DNA of 64,000 nt from Thermodesulfobacterium geofontis OPF15. Lineage in GTDB: Bacteria; Desulfobacterota; Thermodesulfobacteria; Thermodesulfobacteriales; Thermodesulfobacteriaceae. Position 1 is the first letter of the stretch, and each line of letters begins with the position of its first letter. The notes under the pieces are model-generated. The model did no database searches. It had not been told where the DNA came from and saw nothing but the letters and a program-made list of their open reading frames with translations. Of this stretch, positions 2,285-49,612 are shown piece after piece. The DNA lies in assembly GCF_000215975.1 (NCBI RefSeq), contig NC_015682.1, forward strand, positions 682,001-746,000, written 5' to 3'. The position numbers were made by a program, and so were the translations under genes.

Positions 2285-5200
2285 ATGAATTGGAAAAGGT
2301 TATTATGGGTATTGGTGTTTCTTATTCTTTTAGTTAGCGGGGTTTATGCCACGGAAAAAATAGGGGTTTCAATTCCACCAAGTGAATCTACCTATACTCA
2401 AAATAATCCAATTAACAACGCTACTGATACTTCAGGCGGACCGACTTATGGAATTTATGTTGAGAATGCAACAGACCCATTGGCTCTAACGGTTAATGCA
2501 ACAGTAAATTCTAATGCAGCAAATTCAGATGGATCAAGTTATGCCTATGGTGTTTATACAGATAGTCGACTCTTTAGCAATCTAGTTATAACAGAAAATG
2601 GAAATATTAATGCAAATGCAACTGGAGCAACTAGGGCAGGTGCTTATGGAGTATGTTATTTAGGGGTTGATAATGGCGCTCTTAATAACGCTGGAACAAT
2701 AAGTGCCACAGCGAAGGTAGGGGATGCAGAGGGAGATTACTCTTGGGTTATGGCATCTGCTGAAGGGATATTTGAAGCATATGTTTATGACGCCTCATTG
2801 AGTTTTACCAATACTGGCAACATAAATGCGGTAGCAGAGACAGGAAATGCAGTAGGGAATTATACTTATGCTGTGGCAGGTGCTCGTGGAGTATATTTTT
2901 GGGTTTATGATTATGGCACTTTTAACATTAATAACGCTGGGACGATAAGTGCCACAGCGAAGGTAGGGAATGCTACAGGAGAAGGGTATTATGATGGATG
3001 TTTTTGTTATGGGGTTAGTGCATATGCTAATGGGATAGGTGTATCTGTTTATGACGCCTCATTGAGTTTTACCAATACTGGCAACATAAATGCGGTAGCA
3101 GAGACAGGAAATGCAGTAGGGAATTATACTTATGCTGTGGCAGGTGCTCGTGGAGTATATTTAGGGGATGTTTATGGCACTCTTAACATTGAGAACAGTG
3201 GAACGATAAATACTACAGCGAAGGTAGGGAATGCTATAGGAGAGGGGTCTTATGTTCGTGCTGCTGATGCTGTAGGTGTTTTTGCAGAGGCAGATGAAGG
3301 AGCAGTAGACTTCTTTATAAATAAAGGTGAGATAAAAGTTAATGTGCAGGCAGGAAGCGCAATAGGTAATAATTCTCAGGTTGAGGCAGATTATATAAGT
3401 GGAGTTGTGATTCTGGGTCCAGTAAATAACTTTCTTAATACTGGAAACATTTTAGTTTCAGTTAATGTTGGAAATGCCTCAGGAACTGGAAGCTCGGTAA
3501 CTACAGTTTATTTTGGTCCTGGGTGGAATGCAGGAGTATATGGAGTCTATATTGGGGATAATGTTGATGTAATTAACTTTACCAATTTGGGTAATATAGG
3601 TGTAGCAGTTAAGGCAGGAAGTGCAATTGGTGATAATTCTGAAGTAATTTCTGGTTGGGCTCTTGGTGTAGATATTGGAGGGGATGATCCTAGTAAAGTT
3701 GTTAATTCCTTTGTAAACAATGGAACTATAAGTGTTTCAGTCTCTGCTGGAGATGCTAAAGGAACTAACTCAACAGTATGGGCTTTTGCAGGTGCTCCGG
3801 TTTGGGTTGATTATAGCACTGTTAACAGTTTCAAAAATACCGGAACAATAATTTCTACAGGACAAGCAGGAAGCGCCTTAGGTAATGGTTCTACAGTTTA
3901 CATGACTGATTTTGGCAATGGATTTTTGGGTAAAGTAGGGAATTTCACTAATGAAGGCAAAATTATCACTAAGATTTCAGCTGGAGATGCAGTTGGAACT
4001 GAATCTTATTTGATAATAGATGAAGATGTATATGCTTCTGCCTATGGTATATTTTTTGCTGATGTGGTAAATAATTTTCTAAACAAAGGACAAATTTATG
4101 TTGAAGCTTCAGCTGGGAATGCTTTAGGAGCAAATTCTACAGTATATGTTGGAAGTGTATATGGCGTTTCATTTGAAGGAGGAGTTGGGAACTTTACAAA
4201 TGAAGGAACTATTTATGTTGGAGCCTCTGCGGGAAGTGCATCGGGAGATAATTCTACGGTAAAAATAGAAGGGGTTTTAGGTGTGTTTGCTTATGATGTA
4301 AGCTCTGGGTCTCTTGTAAACAAGGGACTTATTCAGACTTCAGTTAAGGGCGGTTCGGGGTCAGAAATTTCTAAAGTAGTCGGATTAGTTTTAGAGGGAG
4401 CTTCCCATACAACATTTTCAAATGAGGGGACAATATATGTGAATGTTGATGCTCCAAAAGCGAAGTCGGTGCAAGACATAGCTGGTATTGTGATAAGTGG
4501 ATCTTCGAATGTGACGATTTCTAATCCAGGCACGATAGCGGTTAGCGTGATAGCCCCAAGCAGTGCTATAAACAATATAAGGACTTTATACATAGAAAAT
4601 TCAAAAGTAACACTCAAAGATAAATTTGCGCTTATGTTTGGGGCACCTGGCACTGGTCCAGCTACTGCACCAATATATGTGGATGCTAACTCCACGCTTG
4701 ATCTAAATAAAGCAACCTTGGTTGTTAGGATTTGGAACAATGATGCCTCTTCAATTGTCGCGAACACACCATATGCATTGATAGAATATAACGGCACGGT
4801 GAATGGCAAGTGGGGAGGATTAGAGAGGGGTTATGCCAATCCGGTAATCGATGTCAACTGGTATAACGCGTCCACTGATAAGGATGCGAAGATCATCTTT
4901 AAGTATAATGCTTTGAACGTTCCAGAGCAAGCTATGTCACCTGTGAGCAGTATAATGGCGGGTTCTTTCATAAATTCTTTCATTTCAGGATTGTTCTTAG
5001 AGTATTTACCCATAACTTCGCCTATATATTTGGCAAAAGCGGTTAGCGATATGCCGCTTGGGTATGGATTGGGTGGGGCGACATATCGTGGCGGTATGTG
5101 GTTTATACCTGTTTATACCAAGGTTAAGGCAAGCGACCTTGGGTTTGATGCCGACGCCTATGGATTTAACCTTGGGTTCGGCGGTTTCTTGACAAGGGAC

Positions 5201-9349: not shown

Positions 9350-9774
9350 AAAAGACTCCTCAAAAGTTCTTCTAACTTTTTTAATTTTTCTTTCTGAAAA
9401 TTGGGTTTCTGAGTTTTAAAAATTTTAATCCAATTTTCAATTTTTTCTAAGCCAAGCTTAAAATCATCTTCTAAACCTTCTTTTTCTGCAAAATTTTTAA
9501 GTCTTCCTAAATTAACTATAGCTCTTTTAATACCTCTATAAAAAGGCTTTTCAATATTTTCTGGTGTAAGGTCTCTTTTAATAATTTCTAAATATCTTTC
9601 AATGACAGCTCTTTTTAAAACTAATAATTCTTCTTCATTAAGAATTAATCCTAAACCTTTTGGAGGAGGTTCAGTTAGATAAAAATAGCTATTCCAGAAA
9701 AAAACCTCTGGAATTTCTCCACCTTCGTATTTGATAATTTCAGCTTCACGTAAAACTTCATCCTTTACAGACAT
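9346..9774 (-). CDS. Hypothetical helical protein
   Basis: 142 residues of unknown family. It is acidic and lysine-rich, has no signal peptide or membrane segment, and looks mainly helical. A central FYRGIKRAIVNLGRL segment stands out. It lies between scpB (5-base gap) and hisH (4-base overlap), so it is translationally coupled to both. It is not ScpA, which is longer and has different conserved ends. No function can be assigned. Confidence 0.7.
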   Translation of the reverse strand: MSVKDEVLREAEIIKYEGGEIPEVFFWNSYFYLTEPPPKGLGLILNEEELLVLKRAVIERYLEIIKRDLTPENIEKPFYRGIKRAIVNLGRLKNFAEKEGLEDDFKLGLEKIENWIKIFKTQKPNFQKEKLKKLEELLRSLL

Positions 9775-9779
9775 CTATT

Positions 9780-10307
9780 TTATTCAGAAAGTTTTTTAAG
9801 TTCTTCAAGGGGTGGAAGATCTTCTAAGGATTTAAGCCCAAAATATTCTAAAAAGAATTTTGTAGTGCCATAAAGAGCAGGTCTTCCCGGAAGTTTTTTC
9901 TTTCCTACTATTTCTATAAAATCGTTTTCCAAAAGAATTTTTAAGGAACTGCTTACATCTACACCGCCTCTTTTTGCTGAAATCTCAGCCCTGGTTATAG
10001 GTTGGAAATAAGCTATTATAGCAAGAGTTTCAAGGAGGGCTTTAGTCCATCTAAATTTTTTGGGTTTAAGTAGCTTTTTTATATAATCAGCTACCTCTGG
10101 AATTGTTTCTATTCTATATCCATCTGCTACTTCAACTAATCTTACACCCCTTTCTAAATAATCCTTTTTTAACTCTTCCAAAATTTTCTTAACTTCAGAA
10201 ATTGGAAGATTATCACAAATCTCAGAGATTTCTTTTGGTTTTAAGGATTTTCCTGCACAGAATAAAAGGGCTTCTATAACTTTTTTGTAAAACTTAAAAT
10301 CTTTCAT
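9780..10307 (-). CDS. scpB: Segregation and condensation protein B
   Basis: 175 residues with two winged-helix domains. Family marks are the opening IEALLFCAGKSL, the central ETLAIIAYFQPITRAEI and the C-terminal GRPALYGTTKFFLEYFGL. ScpB dimers join ScpA and the kleisin bridge of SMC in chromosome condensation. The gene directly abuts the radical SAM gene upstream with no gap. scpA and smc are not in this window. Confidence 0.95.
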   Translation of the reverse strand: MKDFKFYKKVIEALLFCAGKSLKPKEISEICDNLPISEVKKILEELKKDYLERGVRLVEVADGYRIETIPEVADYIKKLLKPKKFRWTKALLETLAIIAYFQPITRAEISAKRGGVDVSSSLKILLENDFIEIVGKKKLPGRPALYGTTKFFLEYFGLKSLEDLPPLEELKKLSE

Positions 10308-11258
10308 TTATTCAACTATAAAAAATTTTTTTCCTTCATGTAGTTTTTCTTTTACTTTATCTTGGGAGATAAAAATTTTTAAAATATCTTCAAGCACCTC
10401 TTTTTCAATTTTTAAGGCTGAGGAAAGTTCTTCTAAAGTAGAAGGGCGCCTTTTAAGATAGTTAAAAATTATTTCTTTAATTTTTTCTTTTTCTAAATCT
10501 TTAAAGGTTTCTACAGCTTTTTCAAGCCTTTCTTTATCTACTATAATTTCTACCCTTTCTCCCAGAAATTCTGCAATTTTTTTCAATTTTTCAAAAGAAA
10601 GAGGCTTTGCTTTCTCAAAAGCAGGGGGTCTTACAACAGTATTTAATTGAACTTTATGAGGATTTATGTAATCTATAGCTGATTTTAAATCTTTTAAATC
10701 CTTTTCTGAATCATTTATTCCTTCAACAAAAAGTATCTCAAGCCACATTTCTCCTTTCATTTCCTCTCTCAATTTTTTTAAGTTCTCAATAATAGTTTTT
10801 AATTCTATTTTAGGATGGGGACGATTAATTTTTTTAAAAGTTTCAGGATTTCCTGCATCAAGTGAGGGCAAAACTATATCTACCTCTGCAAGAGCTGATC
10901 TTATAGAAGGTATATCTAAAAGAGTAGCATTGGTTAAAACAGCTACAGGTTTTTTAATAATTTTTTTAGCTAATCTTAAAGCTTTTTCAAAATGAATATT
11001 TAAGGAAGGTTCCCCACTTCCTGTAAAAGTAAGAACATCAAAAGTATCCTCTATTTCCTTAGCCTGAAGTATAGATCTTTCTATTAAATCCCAAGGATAA
11101 TATTCTTTTCTCTCTAAGGTCAAATTTGTTGTTTTTCCTACTTCACAATAAATACAATTCATGGTACAGACTTTCTTAGGAACCAATTCAATTCCTAAGG
11201 ATCTACCAAGTCTTCTTGATTTTACTGGACCAAAAATTAAGGTTTCTTTTTCAATCAA
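10308..11258 (-). CDS. Radical SAM protein (COG0731-like) with C-terminal winged-helix domain
   Basis: 316 residues. A CxxxCxxC cluster motif (CTMNCIYC, about residues 32-39) binds the 4Fe-4S cluster for radical SAM chemistry. Other family marks are FGPVKSRRLGRSLGIE at the N-terminus, TFTGSGEPSL (the glycine-rich SAM strand) and LNTVVRPP. The last 60 residues or so look like a winged helix (YLKRRPSTLEELSSAL). This matches the uncharacterised COG0731 family, related in its core to wybutosine-type enzymes. The substrate is unknown. It heads the minus-strand operon with scpB and hisH. Confidence 0.85.
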   Translation of the reverse strand: MIEKETLIFGPVKSRRLGRSLGIELVPKKVCTMNCIYCEVGKTTNLTLERKEYYPWDLIERSILQAKEIEDTFDVLTFTGSGEPSLNIHFEKALRLAKKIIKKPVAVLTNATLLDIPSIRSALAEVDIVLPSLDAGNPETFKKINRPHPKIELKTIIENLKKLREEMKGEMWLEILFVEGINDSEKDLKDLKSAIDYINPHKVQLNTVVRPPAFEKAKPLSFEKLKKIAEFLGERVEIIVDKERLEKAVETFKDLEKEKIKEIIFNYLKRRPSTLEELSSALKIEKEVLEDILKIFISQDKVKEKLHEGKKFFIVE

Positions 11259-42325: not shown

Positions 42326-42853
42326 TTAAGGGCAAAAACAGGGATAATACCATAATGGATACCAATAAGGACACCACCAAAAATAATGTGGATAGGTTTC
42401 TATTTGAACTCTAAATTCTTCTTTCCAAAGGTGAAAGGCTTTTCCTTCAAGAACTGGGAATTTATAAGATTTTTCTCCAATTTTTCCATCTCTTAATTCT
42501 TTAAAAACTCCAGCAACGGTAATTAGTTTCCCGGGAGTATAAATAGCACAGTCTAAAAATTTGGGAGTTTCAACTAAAAATCTACCCTCAGATGAAGTAT
42601 CAGCTTGTGGTTTCCCTTCTAAATCTAAAGGAAATTGAACTATTTCTAAGAGAGTAAAGTCTTCTTTATTAAAACAGCTTACAATTCTTCCACCCCATAA
42701 GATTTGAGAGCCTTTATAATTTTCAGGAGAACTTAAAACCTGAGATAGGTTAATCTCTTTTTTAACTGGGATTTCGCTAAATTCTTTTGGTAAAGTAGCA
42801 CATCCCTGAAGAATAAGAACCAAACTAACTAATAAAAGTAAACTCCTAAACAT
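42326..42853 (-). CDS. Slp-family outer-membrane lipoprotein
   Basis: 175 residues. The lipobox LQGC gives a lipidated Cys at about residue 17. The body matches Slp: VLSSPENYKGSQILWGGRI, then LEIVQFPLD and GRFLVETPKFLDCAIY. The C-terminus is rich in Trp, Tyr, Pro and Cys, typical of this family. Slp is a starvation-linked outer-membrane lipoprotein in enterobacteria; its mechanism is unclear. It is divergent from the TonB receptor gene. Confidence 0.85.
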   Translation of the reverse strand: MFRSLLLLVSLVLILQGCATLPKEFSEIPVKKEINLSQVLSSPENYKGSQILWGGRIVSCFNKEDFTLLEIVQFPLDLEGKPQADTSSEGRFLVETPKFLDCAIYTPGKLITVAGVFKELRDGKIGEKSYKFPVLEGKAFHLWKEEFRVQIETYPHYFWWCPYWYPLWYYPCFCP

Positions 42854-43036: not shown

Positions 43037-43068
43037 AATTTTTATAAAATATTATGAAGGAGGTGATT

Positions 43069-45357
43069 ATGGGAAAAAAGTTTTTGATAAAATCCATAAT
43101 TTTAGGATTAATAACAAATTTTTTACTTCCTATTCCAGTTATAGGGGAGGAGGTAAAGGAGGAAAAGGTTAAGAAGGCTGAGGAGCTTCCTGAGGTTGTG
43201 GTTACTGGTGAAAAAATTATTACTCCTACCAAAGAAACTGCAGAAACTGTCTTTACAGGAACAGGAATTACTAAAAAGGGAATTGAACTTTCAGGAGAGA
43301 AGGGAAGTAGCAACGTATGGTCTGTCTTAAATTTTTTACCTGGGGTACTTTTTGAAAGCCCTGATCCAACAGGTATATCTTCTACCCAAAGGACTATTAT
43401 CATAAGAGGGGTAAGCGGGTCTTTGGGTACTATGTCTGTTGAGGGGGTTCCTGTTTATGGAGGGAACCCTATTGGTCCAAGGGAGTATATTTTTGATTTA
43501 GACAACCTTGAGACGATCAATGTTTATAAAGGGGTTAGTCCTGTTGACCTTGGGACAGGCGCTGGGACAAGAGGTGGAACGGTTGAGCTAAAACCTAAAT
43601 GGGCAAAAGATAAGTTAGGGTTTGAGTTTAAACAAAGCTTAGGTATGAATGATTATACTAAGACCTATGCAAGGATAGATTCAGGGAAAATAACCCCTTT
43701 AGGAACAAAATTTTCTCTTTCCTATTCTTATACTGAAGCAGACAAATGGAGAGGAAAAGGAGAAATAGGTCCGAGAAATAATGTAAACTTTACTTTTGTT
43801 CAGCCAATAGGAGATAGAATTAACATAAAGTTTTGGGCAAATTATAACGATATTAAGCATCACAAATATGCTTCCCTTTCTTATCAAGATGCTAAAAGGG
43901 ATAGATGGTTAGACTATAATGAAGACTTTACAGGTGATCCCCAAAAAGACTGGTATTATTACAAGTACCAGAAAATCGGATGGACAAACTATGACTATTA
44001 TGGTTTTATAGATGTAAAGTTGTTAGATAGCCTTATGCTTCAATTGAAACCCTATTACAGAGATGAAGAGAAAGATGATTGGAGTGGAAACTCAAGGATA
44101 CCAGGTCCTGGAGGGCAAAGACCAGGATTAACCTGGAGTGGATGGGAGGTTAAAAGAAAGGGAATCTTAACTCAGCTTATTTTTGATTTTAAGTTGGTTA
44201 AAGGTATTTTAGGTTATAATTATGAACGTCAAGAATGGGATGATAGACCTTCAAAAAACTATTGGTTAAACCCTGACGGTAGTTTGACTTTTATTGGATG
44301 GGGTAGGTTTACAAAAAGCATCTCAGATGGCTTTTCTTCAAGTCCTTATTTTAAGCTCTCAGGAAATATTGGTAAATTAAATTGGCAGGGAGGAATAGCA
44401 TATATAAAGAAAAAAGATGGTAAAAGCGAAGGGTACATTACTCAATATAACGGAACAACCCCTTACTTAGTAAGAGAACCGAAACTTGATTATGGTGGGA
44501 GAAGTTATTCTGCCTGGGTTCCTTCCTTTGGTCTTTCTTATGCTTTTAACGATAAGATAGAAGTCTATACAAGCTTTGGCAAAACCTTTCAAACACCTTA
44601 TATGTATATGCCGATAGTAAATCTTTATTACCGTCTCTATAATAAGTTTAAAAAGATGGGTATAACCTTAGATGACCTTTTTAACGATTACAAATGCGAA
44701 GAAACCTATAATTGGGATTTGGGATTAAGATTTAGAACAGAAAAATTTGAGCTATATCCTACTATTTTTTATTCGAAGCATAAGAATTTAAATACCCCAT
44801 TTACCCCGGGATGGAAAGACCCAGATGATCCGACAAAACCTTTAATCGACCCTCAAACTGGAAGACCTGTAAGTTTTAATACTTTCATCGGTAAGGCAAA
44901 AGGTTATGGGTTTGAGCTTGCTTCAACCTTTTATTTAACGGATAAAATTGCCTTTTTCTTTAACCCATCTTATGTGAAGATGAAATATGATGGAGATATT
45001 GTGAGCGGTGGGACGGTTTATCCTGTTGATGGAAAACAGGTAATAGGTGTGCCCGAACGGATGTTAACCACTGGGCTCATAGCAAGGTATAAAGGCTTTG
45101 AAATAACCCCCAGATTTAGGTATGTAGGTAGTTACTATGGAGATTTTGCACGCACTGAAAAGGTTGCAGGATACGAAGTTTTTGATTTCTTAGTTTCTTA
45201 CAACAAAGAGGAGATAAAGAGCCTTAGACTTAAAAACGTAAGATTAAGTCTTGAGATTGATAATCTTTTTGATAGAAGATATATTTTTGGTACCTCAAAT
45301 AGTTATTATCCAGGGGTGCCCTTTACTGTATTTGGCTCAATATCTTTTAGTTTTTAA
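43069..45357 (+). CDS. TonB-dependent outer-membrane receptor
   Basis: 762 residues from the ATG at 43069, which follows the near-perfect AAGGAGGTGATT; an in-frame ATG at 43054 lies upstream of that site. After a signal peptide (about 1-23) comes a TonB-box-like ELPEVVVTG, then a plug domain (VWSVLNFLPGVLF, IIIRGVSG, VDLGTGAGTRGGTVEL) and a 22-strand-type barrel ending FGSISFSF. It imports large ligands using TonB energy. The substrate cannot be read from sequence, but an exported tetrapyrrole methylase follows in the operon, suggesting a tetrapyrrole or metal chelate. No tonB, exbB or exbD is in the window. Confidence 0.92.
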   Translation: MGKKFLIKSIILGLITNFLLPIPVIGEEVKEEKVKKAEELPEVVVTGEKIITPTKETAETVFTGTGITKKGIELSGEKGSSNVWSVLNFLPGVLFESPDPTGISSTQRTIIIRGVSGSLGTMSVEGVPVYGGNPIGPREYIFDLDNLETINVYKGVSPVDLGTGAGTRGGTVELKPKWAKDKLGFEFKQSLGMNDYTKTYARIDSGKITPLGTKFSLSYSYTEADKWRGKGEIGPRNNVNFTFVQPIGDRINIKFWANYNDIKHHKYASLSYQDAKRDRWLDYNEDFTGDPQKDWYYYKYQKIGWTNYDYYGFIDVKLLDSLMLQLKPYYRDEEKDDWSGNSRIPGPGGQRPGLTWSGWEVKRKGILTQLIFDFKLVKGILGYNYERQEWDDRPSKNYWLNPDGSLTFIGWGRFTKSISDGFSSSPYFKLSGNIGKLNWQGGIAYIKKKDGKSEGYITQYNGTTPYLVREPKLDYGGRSYSAWVPSFGLSYAFNDKIEVYTSFGKTFQTPYMYMPIVNLYYRLYNKFKKMGITLDDLFNDYKCEETYNWDLGLRFRTEKFELYPTIFYSKHKNLNTPFTPGWKDPDDPTKPLIDPQTGRPVSFNTFIGKAKGYGFELASTFYLTDKIAFFFNPSYVKMKYDGDIVSGGTVYPVDGKQVIGVPERMLTTGLIARYKGFEITPRFRYVGSYYGDFARTEKVAGYEVFDFLVSYNKEEIKSLRLKNVRLSLEIDNLFDRRYIFGTSNSYYPGVPFTVFGSISFSF

Positions 45358-45371
45358 ATAGGAGGTGGATC

Positions 45372-46193
45372 ATGAAAAAATTCAGAAAAATTTTACTTTT
45401 AAGTCTTTGTTTTTTGGTTTTCAGTTTTTCTATAGCCCAGGCAGAGGGTAAACTTTATCTGGTTAGCACTGGTGTGGGAGACCTTGATAATCTAACTTTA
45501 AGAGCTTATGAGGTTATCAAAAAAGCTGATATCGTTTTTTGCAGTAAGTGGACTTGTGAGAGGGTAAAGGATTTGATCAAAGGAAAAGAAGTTTATGACG
45601 CAGGGTTTGGAATTTTTCATCTCTTTTATCGAAAAGACAAAGAAACCCCTTCGTCTGAGATAAAAGCTCATGAGTTTAACATAGAAGAAAAAAAGAAAGA
45701 GCTTGAAAAGATAACCAAGATAATAAGAGAGGCGGTAAAACAAGGTAAAATTGTAGCTGTACTTGAAGACGGAGACCCAACCATTTATGGTCCTCACATC
45801 TGGTATATGGAGGCTTTTAAAGATCTTAATCCAGAAATTATACCTGGTGTAAGCTGTTTTAACGCCGCAAACGCAGCCATAAAAAGAAGTATTACCGGAG
45901 GAAGGGCAAAAAGTGTAACCCTTGCTTCTGGTTTTTCTGAGCTTGAAAGCCTTGCTAAAACAGGAACTAACCTTGTTATTTTTACCATGAGAATAAAAGA
46001 TATCACAAAAGTTTTAAAAAAGATTGAAAAATATTATTCACCTAAGACCAAAGTAATTTTTATGCTTTATGCAGGCTATAAAGATAAGGAAAGAGTTATA
46101 ACGGGAACCTTTGAAGACATTTACGAAAAAATTAAAAATATCCAACTACCTTTTGAATACTTAGTTTATGTGGGGGACTTTGGTGAAATCTAA
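45372..46193 (+). CDS. Tetrapyrrole (corrin/porphyrin) methylase family protein with a Sec signal peptide
   Basis: 273 residues. Residues 1-24 are a classic signal peptide: basic MKKFRK, a hydrophobic core and an IAQA cleavage site. The methylase fold starts immediately after: KLYLVSTGVGDLDNLTLRA is the SAM-binding opening of the CobA/CbiF family, followed by VAVLEDGDPTIYGP and EIIPGVSCFNAANAA, both family motifs. ATG at 45372 has AGGAGG 7 bases upstream, and no ATG, GTG or TTG start lies between the signal and the domain. Members are normally cytoplasmic because they need SAM. It sits 14 bases behind the TonB receptor. Periplasmic localisation is strongly predicted; catalytic activity there is open. 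See findings. Confidence 0.85.
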   Translation: MKKFRKILLLSLCFLVFSFSIAQAEGKLYLVSTGVGDLDNLTLRAYEVIKKADIVFCSKWTCERVKDLIKGKEVYDAGFGIFHLFYRKDKETPSSEIKAHEFNIEEKKKELEKITKIIREAVKQGKIVAVLEDGDPTIYGPHIWYMEAFKDLNPEIIPGVSCFNAANAAIKRSITGGRAKSVTLASGFSELESLAKTGTNLVIFTMRIKDITKVLKKIEKYYSPKTKVIFMLYAGYKDKERVITGTFEDIYEKIKNIQLPFEYLVYVGDFGEI

Positions 46194-47526
46194 TGAGTTA
46201 GCAGAGCTGAAAAATAATTCTATTTCTGAAAAAGAGAGCTTTAGGTTAATAAGGGAGATCGGGCTTTTCCCTGCTGTTATGCTTGTTGTAGGAAACACTA
46301 TAGGAACAGGAATCTTTACCACTTCTGGGTTTGTCATAAAGGAGCTTAAAGACCCAGGGGCTCTTCTTTTGGTATGGATTTTGGGAGGTTTGATTGCTCT
46401 TTTTGGAGCTATTAGTTATGCTGAACTTGGGAAGATGTTTCCTCGGGCAGGGGGAGAGTATACTTTTTTAAGAGAAAGCTTTGGTGAAGTTTTTGGATTT
46501 CTTGCTGGATGGATTTCGCTTATCGTTGGTTTTTCAGCCCCTATCGCAGCAACTGCTATTGCTTTCTCAAAATACTTTTTAGAACTTTTCCATTTGCAAA
46601 CCTTTGAGGTAACTTCTAAACTTTTAGCTATTTTAGTAATTTTATTTCTTTCCTTTGTTCATACGCAAAAAATTAAGATTGGTGCTAATTTTCAAGCAGG
46701 GATTACTCTCTTTAAAATCTTTTTTCTTTTTGCTTTTATCTTTTTGGGGTTTTTATGCATTAAAGAAAATTTAAACACCCTTGGGATGAAAAGTTTAATT
46801 CCTAAAAAAGAAACTATTTTAAGTTTAAACTTTCCTGTTTCCCTTATTTATGTGATGTATGCTTATAGTGGGTGGAATGCTGCAACTTATGTAGGAGAAG
46901 AAATTAAGAATCCTCAGAGAAACATCCCTTTAGCCCTTTTGTTAGGAGTTTTGTTAGTGGTGGTTTTGTATGTTGGGATAAATATTCTTTATGTTAGAGC
47001 CCTTTCTGTTGAAGAGATGTCTGGGGTTGTAGAGATAGGAGCTAAGACTGCAGAAAAGATTTTTGGAGGAAAGCTATCTTTTCTTTTTACTGCGGGAATT
47101 ACTTTGGGGCTTCTTTCGGTTTTAAGTGCTATGATAATTGCTGGACCAAGAGTATATTACGCCATGGCAAGGGATGGGGTATTTTTTAAAGTATTCTCAA
47201 GGGTTCATCCAGAAAAGAAAACGCCGATTTTTTCAATCCTTCTTCAGGCAATGATTGCCATTTTTATGGTTTTAACCTCAACCTTTGAAGCCCTTCTTCT
47301 TTATATAGGTTTTACTTTGTCTTTGTGCGCAAGTTTAACGGTTTTAGGTTTTATGAAGCTTAAAAAGAAGTTTATTTTTCCAGCCTTTGCTTTTATTTTA
47401 GCTAATCTTTGGATGATGATTTTTGCCATCTTAACTAAACCTTTAACCCTTTTGGCAGGTTTTTTAACTATTTTAGCAGGTTTTGTTTTATATCAGTTTA
47501 AGTTTAATCAAAAATTAAAAATTTAA
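46183..47526 (+). CDS. APC-superfamily amino acid/polyamine permease
   Basis: 447 residues from the GTG at 46183, chosen for the GGGGG 6 bases upstream; an in-frame ATG at 46168 lacks a ribosome site. The family opening VMLVVGNTIGTGIF is followed by about 12 membrane helices, with FPRAGGEYTFLRESFG and YSGWNAATYVGEEIKNPQRNIP. It probably moves an amino acid or related amine across the inner membrane. The start overlaps the methylase end by 11 bases, so it is in the same operon. A role linked to SAM or methionine handling is only conceivable. Confidence 0.9.
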   Translation: MKSNELAELKNNSISEKESFRLIREIGLFPAVMLVVGNTIGTGIFTTSGFVIKELKDPGALLLVWILGGLIALFGAISYAELGKMFPRAGGEYTFLRESFGEVFGFLAGWISLIVGFSAPIAATAIAFSKYFLELFHLQTFEVTSKLLAILVILFLSFVHTQKIKIGANFQAGITLFKIFFLFAFIFLGFLCIKENLNTLGMKSLIPKKETILSLNFPVSLIYVMYAYSGWNAATYVGEEIKNPQRNIPLALLLGVLLVVVLYVGINILYVRALSVEEMSGVVEIGAKTAEKIFGGKLSFLFTAGITLGLLSVLSAMIIAGPRVYYAMARDGVFFKVFSRVHPEKKTPIFSILLQAMIAIFMVLTSTFEALLLYIGFTLSLCASLTVLGFMKLKKKFIFPAFAFILANLWMMIFAILTKPLTLLAGFLTILAGFVLYQFKFNQKLKI

Positions 47527-47537
47527 GGAGGTTAGCT

Positions 47538-48251
47538 ATGAAAAGGGCAGGATTAATTTTATTTTTAGTTTTAATTATGTTTTTATTTGCAACCCCGGGT
47601 TTTTCTCATATACTTTGGATAGAAGAGACTAACGGTAAGTTTAAAGTTTTTTGGGGACATATCGGTAAACCAGAGTTTTATGACCCAAAAAATATAAAAG
47701 AGATTAAAGGTTTTGATAAAAAGGGGAAATCTATAAAGCTTAAAAAAGAAGTAGTTGATAACCAACTTATTCTTTTAGCTGAGAAAAAGCCATCTTTAAT
47801 TCTTGCTTCCATGGAAGGTGTTTATTTGGTTACTACTCCAGAAGGTAAAAAAAGGATGGATAAGACCGAAGCTCAGAAGCAAGGATTACAAGTAATAGAA
47901 AGTTTTTATGCCCTTCAATCCACCAAGGCTATTTTTGAAGATTCAGTGCTCTTAAAGAAACCTTTAGGGCTAACGCTTGATCCGATCTTTGTGGAAACTC
48001 CATATAAAGGAAAGGATGAGGTGGCGGTTAAGGTTTTATATGAAGGAAAGCCAGCTGAAGGCGTAATCATTTTTAATCCGTATCATAAAGAGTTAGCTAA
48101 AACAGATACCAAAGGAATGGCAAGGATAAAGGTTGAAGACCTTAAGATGAAAGAAGGATATTATGCCTTGGTGTGTTTTTATAAAGTTAAGATTTCAGAC
48201 CCAAAAGCTGAGTATTTATGGCTTATAACCTCTTTAACCTGGCAGAGATAG
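47538..48251 (+). CDS. DUF4198 (NikK-like) periplasmic protein
   Basis: 237 residues. Signal peptide to about residue 23 (PGFSH). The mature start HILWIEE and the C-terminal LDPIFVETPYKGKDEVAVKVLYEGKPAEG, then the TDTKGMARIKV carboxypeptidase-regulatory-like fold, match DUF4198. Such proteins are the NikK or similar periplasmic partners of nickel and cobalt ECF transporters and also occur next to TonB receptors. A His directly at the mature N-terminus could bind metal. It is 11 bases after the permease and leads into the NikL-like gene. Confidence 0.82.
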   Translation: MKRAGLILFLVLIMFLFATPGFSHILWIEETNGKFKVFWGHIGKPEFYDPKNIKEIKGFDKKGKSIKLKKEVVDNQLILLAEKKPSLILASMEGVYLVTTPEGKKRMDKTEAQKQGLQVIESFYALQSTKAIFEDSVLLKKPLGLTLDPIFVETPYKGKDEVAVKVLYEGKPAEGVIIFNPYHKELAKTDTKGMARIKVEDLKMKEGYYALVCFYKVKISDPKAEYLWLITSLTWQR

Positions 48252-48273: not shown

Positions 48274-48723
48274 TTGAAAAAAGGTCTCTTTTTATTGTTT
48301 TTAATAGGGCTATGTTTTTCGAAGACACTTTTTGCTCATGAGGTTAATTATCAGGTAAAGGGGGCTCAGGGGGTTTGTGTTAGTTTCTTTTTTGCAGGTG
48401 GAGAGCCAATGGATTATGCAGAAATAGAAGTTTATGCACCCGGGGAAAAGATACCTTTTCAGAAGGCAAGAACTGACAGAAACGGAATTTTTTGCTTTAT
48501 GCCTGATAAAAAGGGTGTTTGGAAAGTTATAGCTAAGGGAGAAACAGAGCATGGACTACATGGAGCAGAGGTTGAGGTGAAGGTTAAAGAAGATTTAAGC
48601 ATTGAGGGGTTTAAAAAGCCTCTCGTTGCTACTTATACCAAGGTTTTTATCGCCTTTGGGATTGTTGGATGGCTTATCGGATTAGCAGGTATTTATTTAT
48701 TTTTGAAAGAAAAGAAGAAATAA
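48274..48723 (+). CDS. NikL-like membrane-anchored periplasmic protein
   Basis: 149 residues from a TTG start behind GAGGAG. The signal peptide ends FA before HEVNYQV. The middle is a small beta-sandwich domain with GGEPMDYAEIEVYAPGE and TDRNGIFCFMP. One C-terminal membrane helix (about 124-144) ends in KEKKK. This is the layout of NikL-type partners of NikK in nickel uptake systems; again the mature chain begins with His. No NikMNQO genes are near. Confidence 0.8.
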   Translation: MKKGLFLLFLIGLCFSKTLFAHEVNYQVKGAQGVCVSFFFAGGEPMDYAEIEVYAPGEKIPFQKARTDRNGIFCFMPDKKGVWKVIAKGETEHGLHGAEVEVKVKEDLSIEGFKKPLVATYTKVFIAFGIVGWLIGLAGIYLFLKEKKK

Positions 48724-49026
48724 CTGATATTACCTTTAATAACACACAAAATAAGTAGGTTCTTGGTTTTTCTTATTACTGATGGGAAAGCAAATGTTTC
48801 TTTAACTGGAAAGCCTGTTTTTGAAGAACTTCAGAGTCTTTGTAATCTTTTAAGTGGTATTTCTTCTGCCGATTTTGTAGTTATAGATACAGAAAAGAAA
48901 AATAAGTTTATAAGGATGGATATTGCTTTTAAGATTGCAGAATGGCTTAATGCAAGGTATTATTTAATTGAAGATTTAAAAGCAGATAGTCTTTTAGCTA
49001 TTGCAAGGGCTTATAAGAATATATAA
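48724..49026 (+). pseudogene. C-terminal fragment of a ChlD/BchD-type chelatase VWA domain
   Basis: The frame is open directly from the NikL stop at 48723, and a start TTG at 48763 gives 87 codons. VFLITDGKANVSL, VVIDTEKKNKFIRMD and ARYYLIEDLKADSLL are the last strands and helices of the VWA domain of magnesium or cobalt chelatase D subunits, normally 600-plus residues. The match seems to extend upstream of the TTG, where no start codon or good ribosome site exists. I read it as the 3' stump of a deleted gene; expression of a stand-alone 87-residue protein cannot be excluded. Confidence 0.7.
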
Positions 49027-49045
49027 ATTATGGGAGGGTGAGAAT

Positions 49046-49612
49046 ATGCCATTTCCAAGAACTTGGAGTGAAGAATTAATAGCTGAATGGTTACAATTAA
49101 GAGGTTATTTAGTAGAAATTGGAATTCCTATAAGTTCTCCTAAGGCAGGAGGTAGAAATGAGGCTGATGTAGTTGATGCAAAATTTAGAGATGGTATTTT
49201 AGAAATCATTCATGTAGAAGTTGGTACTCTACCTGGAGGAGCTGAGCAAAGTAAAGAAACTTTTCGAAAGAAATTTTCGGAGGAGGTTCGAGATAGTATA
49301 GTTAATTATTTTGCACAAAGACTTGAGATTAAAACTTTTGAGAATGTTAATTATAAAGGTATATGTGTACTTGTATATGCTTCCAGACCTACTTTAGAGG
49401 CTCTTTTAAATTTTGTTAAAGAAACTAAAAAAGAGGTCGAAATTAAGGAATTATCCGAATTTATAAAAGATGAAATTATTCCAACTATTCAAAATTGGAA
49501 AAAACATCCTCCACATAGTCCCAAAACGCGAGGAAAAGAGATCACTTTACCAGAAAGCCATTGGTTATTGCAATTGATAGATTATTTAGACAGGAAGCAG
49601 TTACTAAAATAA
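49046..49612 (+). CDS. Hypothetical protein, possible PD-(D/E)xK nuclease fold
   Basis: 188 residues from the ATG at 49046 (GGGAGGGTG upstream). WSEELIAEWLQLRGYLVE, then RNEADVVDAKF and LEIIHVEVG, follow the alpha-beta-beta order of PD-(D/E)xK nucleases (E...D...ExV), but the catalytic Lys is replaced: EVG in place of ExK. No partner methylase is nearby. It lies just behind the chelatase stump, breaking the metal-gene theme, and may mark the insertion or deletion that truncated that gene. The family assignment is tentative. Confidence 0.5.
   Translation: MPFPRTWSEELIAEWLQLRGYLVEIGIPISSPKAGGRNEADVVDAKFRDGILEIIHVEVGTLPGGAEQSKETFRKKFSEEVRDSIVNYFAQRLEIKTFENVNYKGICVLVYASRPTLEALLNFVKETKKEVEIKELSEFIKDEIIPTIQNWKKHPPHSPKTRGKEITLPESHWLLQLIDYLDRKQLLK

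Follow-up and report, generated by a model that had tools for sequence, protein, structure and literature searches.

A TonB-linked branch of TP_methylase proteins with predicted export signals in Thermodesulfobacteriota, putative periplasmic components of metal-chelate uptake

Proteins of the TP_methylase family (PF00590), among them CobM/CbiF and CobA/SUMT, are treated as cytoplasmic enzymes of cofactor synthesis. Tetrapyrrole handling on the other side of the inner membrane is exemplified by CbiK-P of Desulfovibrio vulgaris, a periplasmic cobaltochelatase (PMC4063343). For delta-proteobacteria, nikK and nikL have been proposed to encode periplasmic components belonging to the nickel transporter NikMQO (PMC545781). 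The locus analyzed here belongs to a branch of PF00590 proteins from Thermodesulfobacteriota, i.e. sulfate reducers and their relatives, which carry predicted export signals and are tied to TonB-dependent receptors.

The window, i.e. the whole stretch of 64 kb that was analyzed, corresponds to bases 682001-746000 of a genome of 1.63 Mb made up by one contig. An ORF at 45372-46193 on the plus strand, starting with ATG and coding for 273 aa, encodes the TP_methylase protein, whose closest named relatives are found in Thermodesulfobacterium species. The features of the unit are the following:

43054-45357, plus strand: TonB-dependent outer-membrane receptor (Plug and barrel), first gene of the unit (PF00593 E 4e-27, PF07715 E 2.5e-9)
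45360-45365, plus strand: Shine-Dalgarno AGGAGG for the signal-peptide start, located in the sequence 6 nt upstream of the ATG
45372-45443, plus strand: predicted Sec signal peptide MKKFRKILLLSLCFLVFSFSIAQA (n/h/c pattern and A-x-A; pattern in nearly all complete relatives)
45444-46190, plus strand: predicted mature TP_methylase-fold domain (PF00590 E 5e-40; AlphaFold2 model with pLDDT 72, CobM/CbiF at Z 17.5)
46168-47526, plus strand: APC-superfamily inner-membrane transporter, amino-acid permease type (PF13520 E 9e-54)
47538-48251, plus strand: DUF4198 (NikK-like) protein with signal-like N-terminus (PF10670 E 5e-9)
48274-48723, plus strand: NikL-like accessory protein of nickel/cobalt ECF transporters (NF058648 E 4.5e-12, 46 bits, below the cut-off of 100)

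The five genes (receptor, exported domain, APC permease, DUF4198, NikL) are separated by 14, -26, 11 and 22 nt; an alternative start of the permease gene is possible at the GTG at 46183. The order of the first four is the same in every Thermodesulfobacterium-type locus examined, while the upstream genes differ. The receptor scores 131 bits with the NCBIfam TonB-siderophor model (cut-off 223), and matches only FhuA, weakly, in the PDB. A gene for an Slp-family outer-membrane lipoprotein (42326-42853, minus strand) is divergent from it; relatives have other genes at this place. Past the unit, the ORF at 48763-49026 matches only the last 70 residues or so of a putative cobaltochelatase/magnesium-chelatase D family (positions 575-641 of 641 in TIGR02442), and is apparently the remnant of a chelatase gene; the ORF at 49001-49609 (203 aa) has no match in Pfam or NCBIfam. 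A riboswitch search with Rfam over the 64-kb window returned a tRNA as sole match, and footprinting of the region 5' of the receptor in relatives aligned AT-rich sequence only.

The translation of the ORF starts with MKKFRKILLLSLCFLVFSFSIAQA followed by EGKLYLVSTGVGD. The predicted N-terminus, MKKFRKILLLSLCFLVFSFSIAQA followed by EGKLYLV, features a basic n-region, a core of 11 residues with a mean Kyte-Doolittle value of 3.2 and an A-x-A site, cleavage being predicted between AQA and EG (residue 25 is Glu). Since the PF00590 match spans residues 27-250, the domain begins about 2 residues past the predicted cleavage site. The direct joining of a signal peptide to a methylase fold, and an AGGAGG correctly placed for the signal-peptide start, had been noticed earlier from the sequence, and both observations hold. 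The same note had stated that no ATG, GTG or TTG lies before the domain, and this has to be corrected: an in-frame TTG is found at codon 15 (45414), within the hydrophobic core and devoid of a Shine-Dalgarno sequence. The next start-like codon, GTG at codon 35, is already in the domain. Of the 322 ATGs in the window that open a reading frame running on for 60 codons or more, only 15 pass a crude signal rule; as few ATGs pass, and the signal recurs in a phylum-wide clade, its presence is more than a chance event.

The TP_methylase domain is complete, and matches the Pfam model with 138 bits against a cut-off of 27.8 (E 5.2e-40). The best curated NCBIfam models are cobM_cbiF and those of uroporphyrinogen methyltransferases, and every cut-off is missed (84 vs. 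260 bits for cobM_cbiF, 69 vs. 185 bits for cobA). The CobA/CbiF-type fold proposed earlier is borne out by an AlphaFold2 model, built on a 6-row alignment of the window protein with sequences from related loci and having a pLDDT of 72, for which CobM/CbiF is the top match (Z 17.5, with 214 residues superposed at an rmsd of 3.5), followed by CobA, CysG and CbiL; the Foldseek E value is 2e-14. Only three PF00590 proteins are encoded by the same genome, the exported one, a CobA-HemD-like fusion and an RsmI-like protein, the last two named from length and position in the tree. The reading as a displaced enzyme of cobalamin synthesis is therefore rejected, the genome having no other corrin methylases and the cytosolic paralogs belonging to other branches. 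Two exported copies and two other PF00590 proteins reside in G308, a genome whose sequence may be incomplete.

Relatives were monitored in 297 genomes of the phylum. Matches at E 1e-10 were found in 73 of them, strong full-length matches in about 30 (our count from the match table); within the genus, the exported protein is present in 7 of 14 genomes (E <= 1e-100). No relative was detected at E 1e-13 among 398 genomes of one other phylum, searched with no positive control. A clade profile made from 53 exported-type domains assigns 235-346 bits to exported-type ORFs, with one contig-cut fragment (L107) at 158, and at most 137 bits to the other TP_methylases of the phylum. Nearly all complete ORFs of the exported type have a hydrophobic N-terminal stretch in front of the domain, L077 being the doubtful case that may really have no signal; homologues devoid of a signal, named earlier as evidence that would speak against export, were looked for and, this possible exception aside, did not turn up. 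Non-exported TP_methylases mostly begin within about 5 residues of the first strand. Of 56 exported-type ORFs, 43 pass the crude signal rule, whereas no true cytosolic ORF does; the sole passing ORF labelled cytosolic is the L107 fragment. Most of the misses are contig-cut, masked, or fail the rule because of a charged residue. A maximum-likelihood tree sets the 58 exported domains apart from the others by a single branch (support 83/86, recovered in 78% of bootstrap trees), and they form one clade with moderate support.

Domain fusions were observed in relatives. In L051 the order signal-DUF4198-TP_methylase is found in a single chain, both domains scoring over the cut-off. Five sequences feature a tandem pair of TP_methylase domains behind the signal, and in twelve about 340 residues separate signal and domain. 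In L065, the one scanned of the twelve, this stretch is an Oxidored_molyb domain; the other eleven look alike. A CxxCH haem-c motif is found upstream of the TP_methylase domain, at a similar position, in 9 of these 12 fusions. Covalent attachment of c-type haem takes place outside the cytoplasm, in the periplasm, and the TP_methylase domain on the same chain should hence be outside as well. The signal of L049 ends with LLWTIGC, a lipobox-like sequence. Signals occurring clade-wide against none in cytosolic paralogs, together with the fusions, uphold the export of the protein suggested earlier, as far as it can be predicted from sequence; an artefact of start-site choice is ruled out by the same two observations.

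A TonB receptor lies within 3 genes of 36 of 44 domain-bearing genes, on the same strand in all 36. In 39 loci, the receptor was found near the exported domain in 35, the APC permease in 21, DUF4198 in 18, NikL and ExbB/ExbD/TonB in 9 each, and CbiM/CbiQ in 2, whereas 176 genes located farther out include one APC permease and no receptor. The tie to TonB noticed at the single locus recurs in the tabulated neighbours, and the predictions of export and of a TonB link are strongly supported for the whole clade. In the subgroup to which the window protein belongs, DUF4198 is constant, NikL nearly so.

Other subgroups keep different company. Cytochrome c assembly genes adjoin exported TP_methylases in L042, L058, L062 and L068, and three of these four loci also have a second conserved membrane protein there, a hint that this subgroup handles haem. 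FmdE-domain proteins are found beside exported TP_methylases at L076:4724-5488, L042:2545-3276 and L052:10358-11038; the one in L076 has a signal-like N-terminus, so that export at this locus may extend to a second family of cytoplasmic type. In L069, two putative heavy-metal chelation proteins of the DUF364/DUF4213 type (3938-4747 and 9605-10363) are interleaved with two exported fusions.

The connection to nickel and cobalt comes from the distal part of the unit, where the NikK-like DUF4198 and NikL-like genes follow on the same strand at 11 and 22 nt. In L007 the row reads exported domain, DUF4198, exported domain, APC, NikL, CbiM, CbiQ, ABC ATPase, and L049 is similar. The CbiM/CbiQ/ABC core is absent from the window; the only CbiM of the genome (C1:1315404) is about 0.59 Mb away and adjoins another, strong DUF4198 gene. 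The genome has nikR. A scan for NikR operators 5' of receptors and domains with a delta-type motif gave 7 sites against 5.8 expected, no excess over chance; the genus may use another motif.

Residues of the cleft were monitored according to the SAM-site, substrate and active-site roles described for NirE (PMC4731766), to the numbering of which the window protein and the clade were mapped by our motif alignment. The GDP motif is retained, with Gly in 57, Asp in 51 (Asn in 7) and Pro in 57 of the 58 exported domains, and so are, throughout the clade, PGxS and the C-terminal Gly; the equivalent of Thr133 is Ser or Gly. In the window protein Val replaces the Pro of GPGD, and Thr the equivalent of Met186. 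The substrate-site residues are changed. At the Arg100 equivalent, at least 55 of the 58 exported domains have a hydrophobic residue (Val130 in the window protein). At the Glu114 equivalent, 41 of the 58 have Trp and another 12 have Tyr, Phe or His (Trp144 in the window protein), whereas all 10 cytosolic paralogs have Arg and Glu at the two positions. At the Cys57 equivalent, 33 of the 58 exported domains have Cys, and the cytosolic paralogs have Tyr or Phe. Retention of the SAM-site motifs along with alteration of substrate-site residues indicates that the cleft is under selection and the substrate has changed, a pattern compatible with a binding protein as well as with an enzyme whose specificity has shifted.

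We hold, with about even confidence, that the protein would be a periplasmic component which binds or processes the cargo of a TonB-dependent uptake system for metal chelates. The receptor would bring the chelate into the periplasm, a nickel or cobalt one in the subgroup of the window, possibly a metallo-tetrapyrrole or a similar planar chelate. The exported domain would bind it in its interlobe cleft, and then hand it over or modify it; NikK and NikL would deliver the metal to an ECF transporter, for example NikMQO, and the APC permease would transport the carrier molecule or some other product. Points against this reading are that CbiM/CbiQ adjoin only 2 of the 39 loci and NikL only 9, that the NikR scan gave no excess of sites, and that the support for monophyly is moderate. 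A nickel or cobalt chelate is the likeliest cargo in this subgroup because of the company of DUF4198, NikL and CbiM. The TP_methylase fold makes a tetrapyrrole-like chelate attractive, and the cargo is perhaps a metallo-tetrapyrrole, the tetrapyrrole part being read from the fold only.

Given the neighbours of the other subgroups (cytochrome c assembly, FmdE, DUF364, solute-binding proteins), the cargo may vary. The same periplasmic binder could accordingly serve something other than nickel or cobalt, i.e. haem or another tetrapyrrole, a molybdenum or tungsten species, or an organic chelate, depending on the subgroup. The cytochrome c assembly genes next to four relatives, the fusions of others to molybdopterin-type domains with CxxCH, and the solute-binding, FmdE and DUF364 proteins near still others speak for this alternative, which we nevertheless regard as rather unlikely for the window protein, such contexts being absent from its own subgroup.

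An active periplasmic methyltransferase, reached by SAM or another donor and methylating the imported molecule, with the APC permease perhaps acting as a SAM/SAH exchanger, is a less probable alternative. The SAM-site motifs retained clade-wide fit an active enzyme equally, CobM/CbiF is the closest fold, and the permease is near the domain in 21 loci and almost missing farther out; but the Arg and Glu of the cytosolic paralogs are replaced, the window protein departs from NirE at Met186 and at the Pro of GPGD, and we know of no supply of SAM to the periplasm. Binding or processing with no SAM turnover is for this last reason likelier than methylation. The more specific version, a SAM-dependent enzyme with a dedicated APC exchanger which methylates an incoming metallo-tetrapyrrole or similar chelate, is to be rated lower still. 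Least credible by far is a cytoplasmic domain, the hydrophobic N-terminus being an uncleaved anchor or bypassed via the internal TTG at codon 15, as this codon sits within the core with no Shine-Dalgarno sequence, the positive n-region predicts the remainder outside, signals are clade-wide, and DUF4198 and CxxCH fusions place the chain outside.

The periplasmic binding or processing component preferred here makes the exported TP_methylase a named candidate for the import of scarce nickel, cobalt or tetrapyrroles, and raises the question whether a SAM-type pocket can function beyond the cytoplasm or has been put to another use there. Under automatic best-match annotation these proteins would pass for cobalamin methyltransferases, and B12 synthesis would be overstated in genomes devoid of it. 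In a literature search covering subscription journals only in small part, no work was found that connects a tetrapyrrole methylase either to TonB and a signal peptide or to nickel and the periplasm, and 'tetrapyrrole methylase' and 'TonB' were co-mentioned in only one paper, on a stress response of Porphyromonas. Fold and uptake parts are already known; that literature yielded no description of an exported methylase branch linked with uptake by TonB.

The window protein shares with CobM/CbiF and CobA/SUMT the fold, the domain length and the SAM-site motifs. It differs because it carries an export signal, as judged from its sequence, falls below all NCBIfam cut-offs, has the substrate-site Arg and Glu replaced, and is encoded outside any cobalamin locus. 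CbiK-P, too, is a periplasmic protein of a sulfate reducer and belongs to a family that handles tetrapyrroles (PMC4063343), but has a type II chelatase fold, whereas the window domain is TP_methylase along its whole length. With the NikMQO-NikK-NikL system the exported-domain loci have in common the genes for NikK-like DUF4198 and a NikL-like protein, to which L007 and L049 add CbiM/CbiQ; the system as set out in the available portion of its description (PMC545781) includes neither an exported TP_methylase nor an APC permease, and these set the present loci apart.
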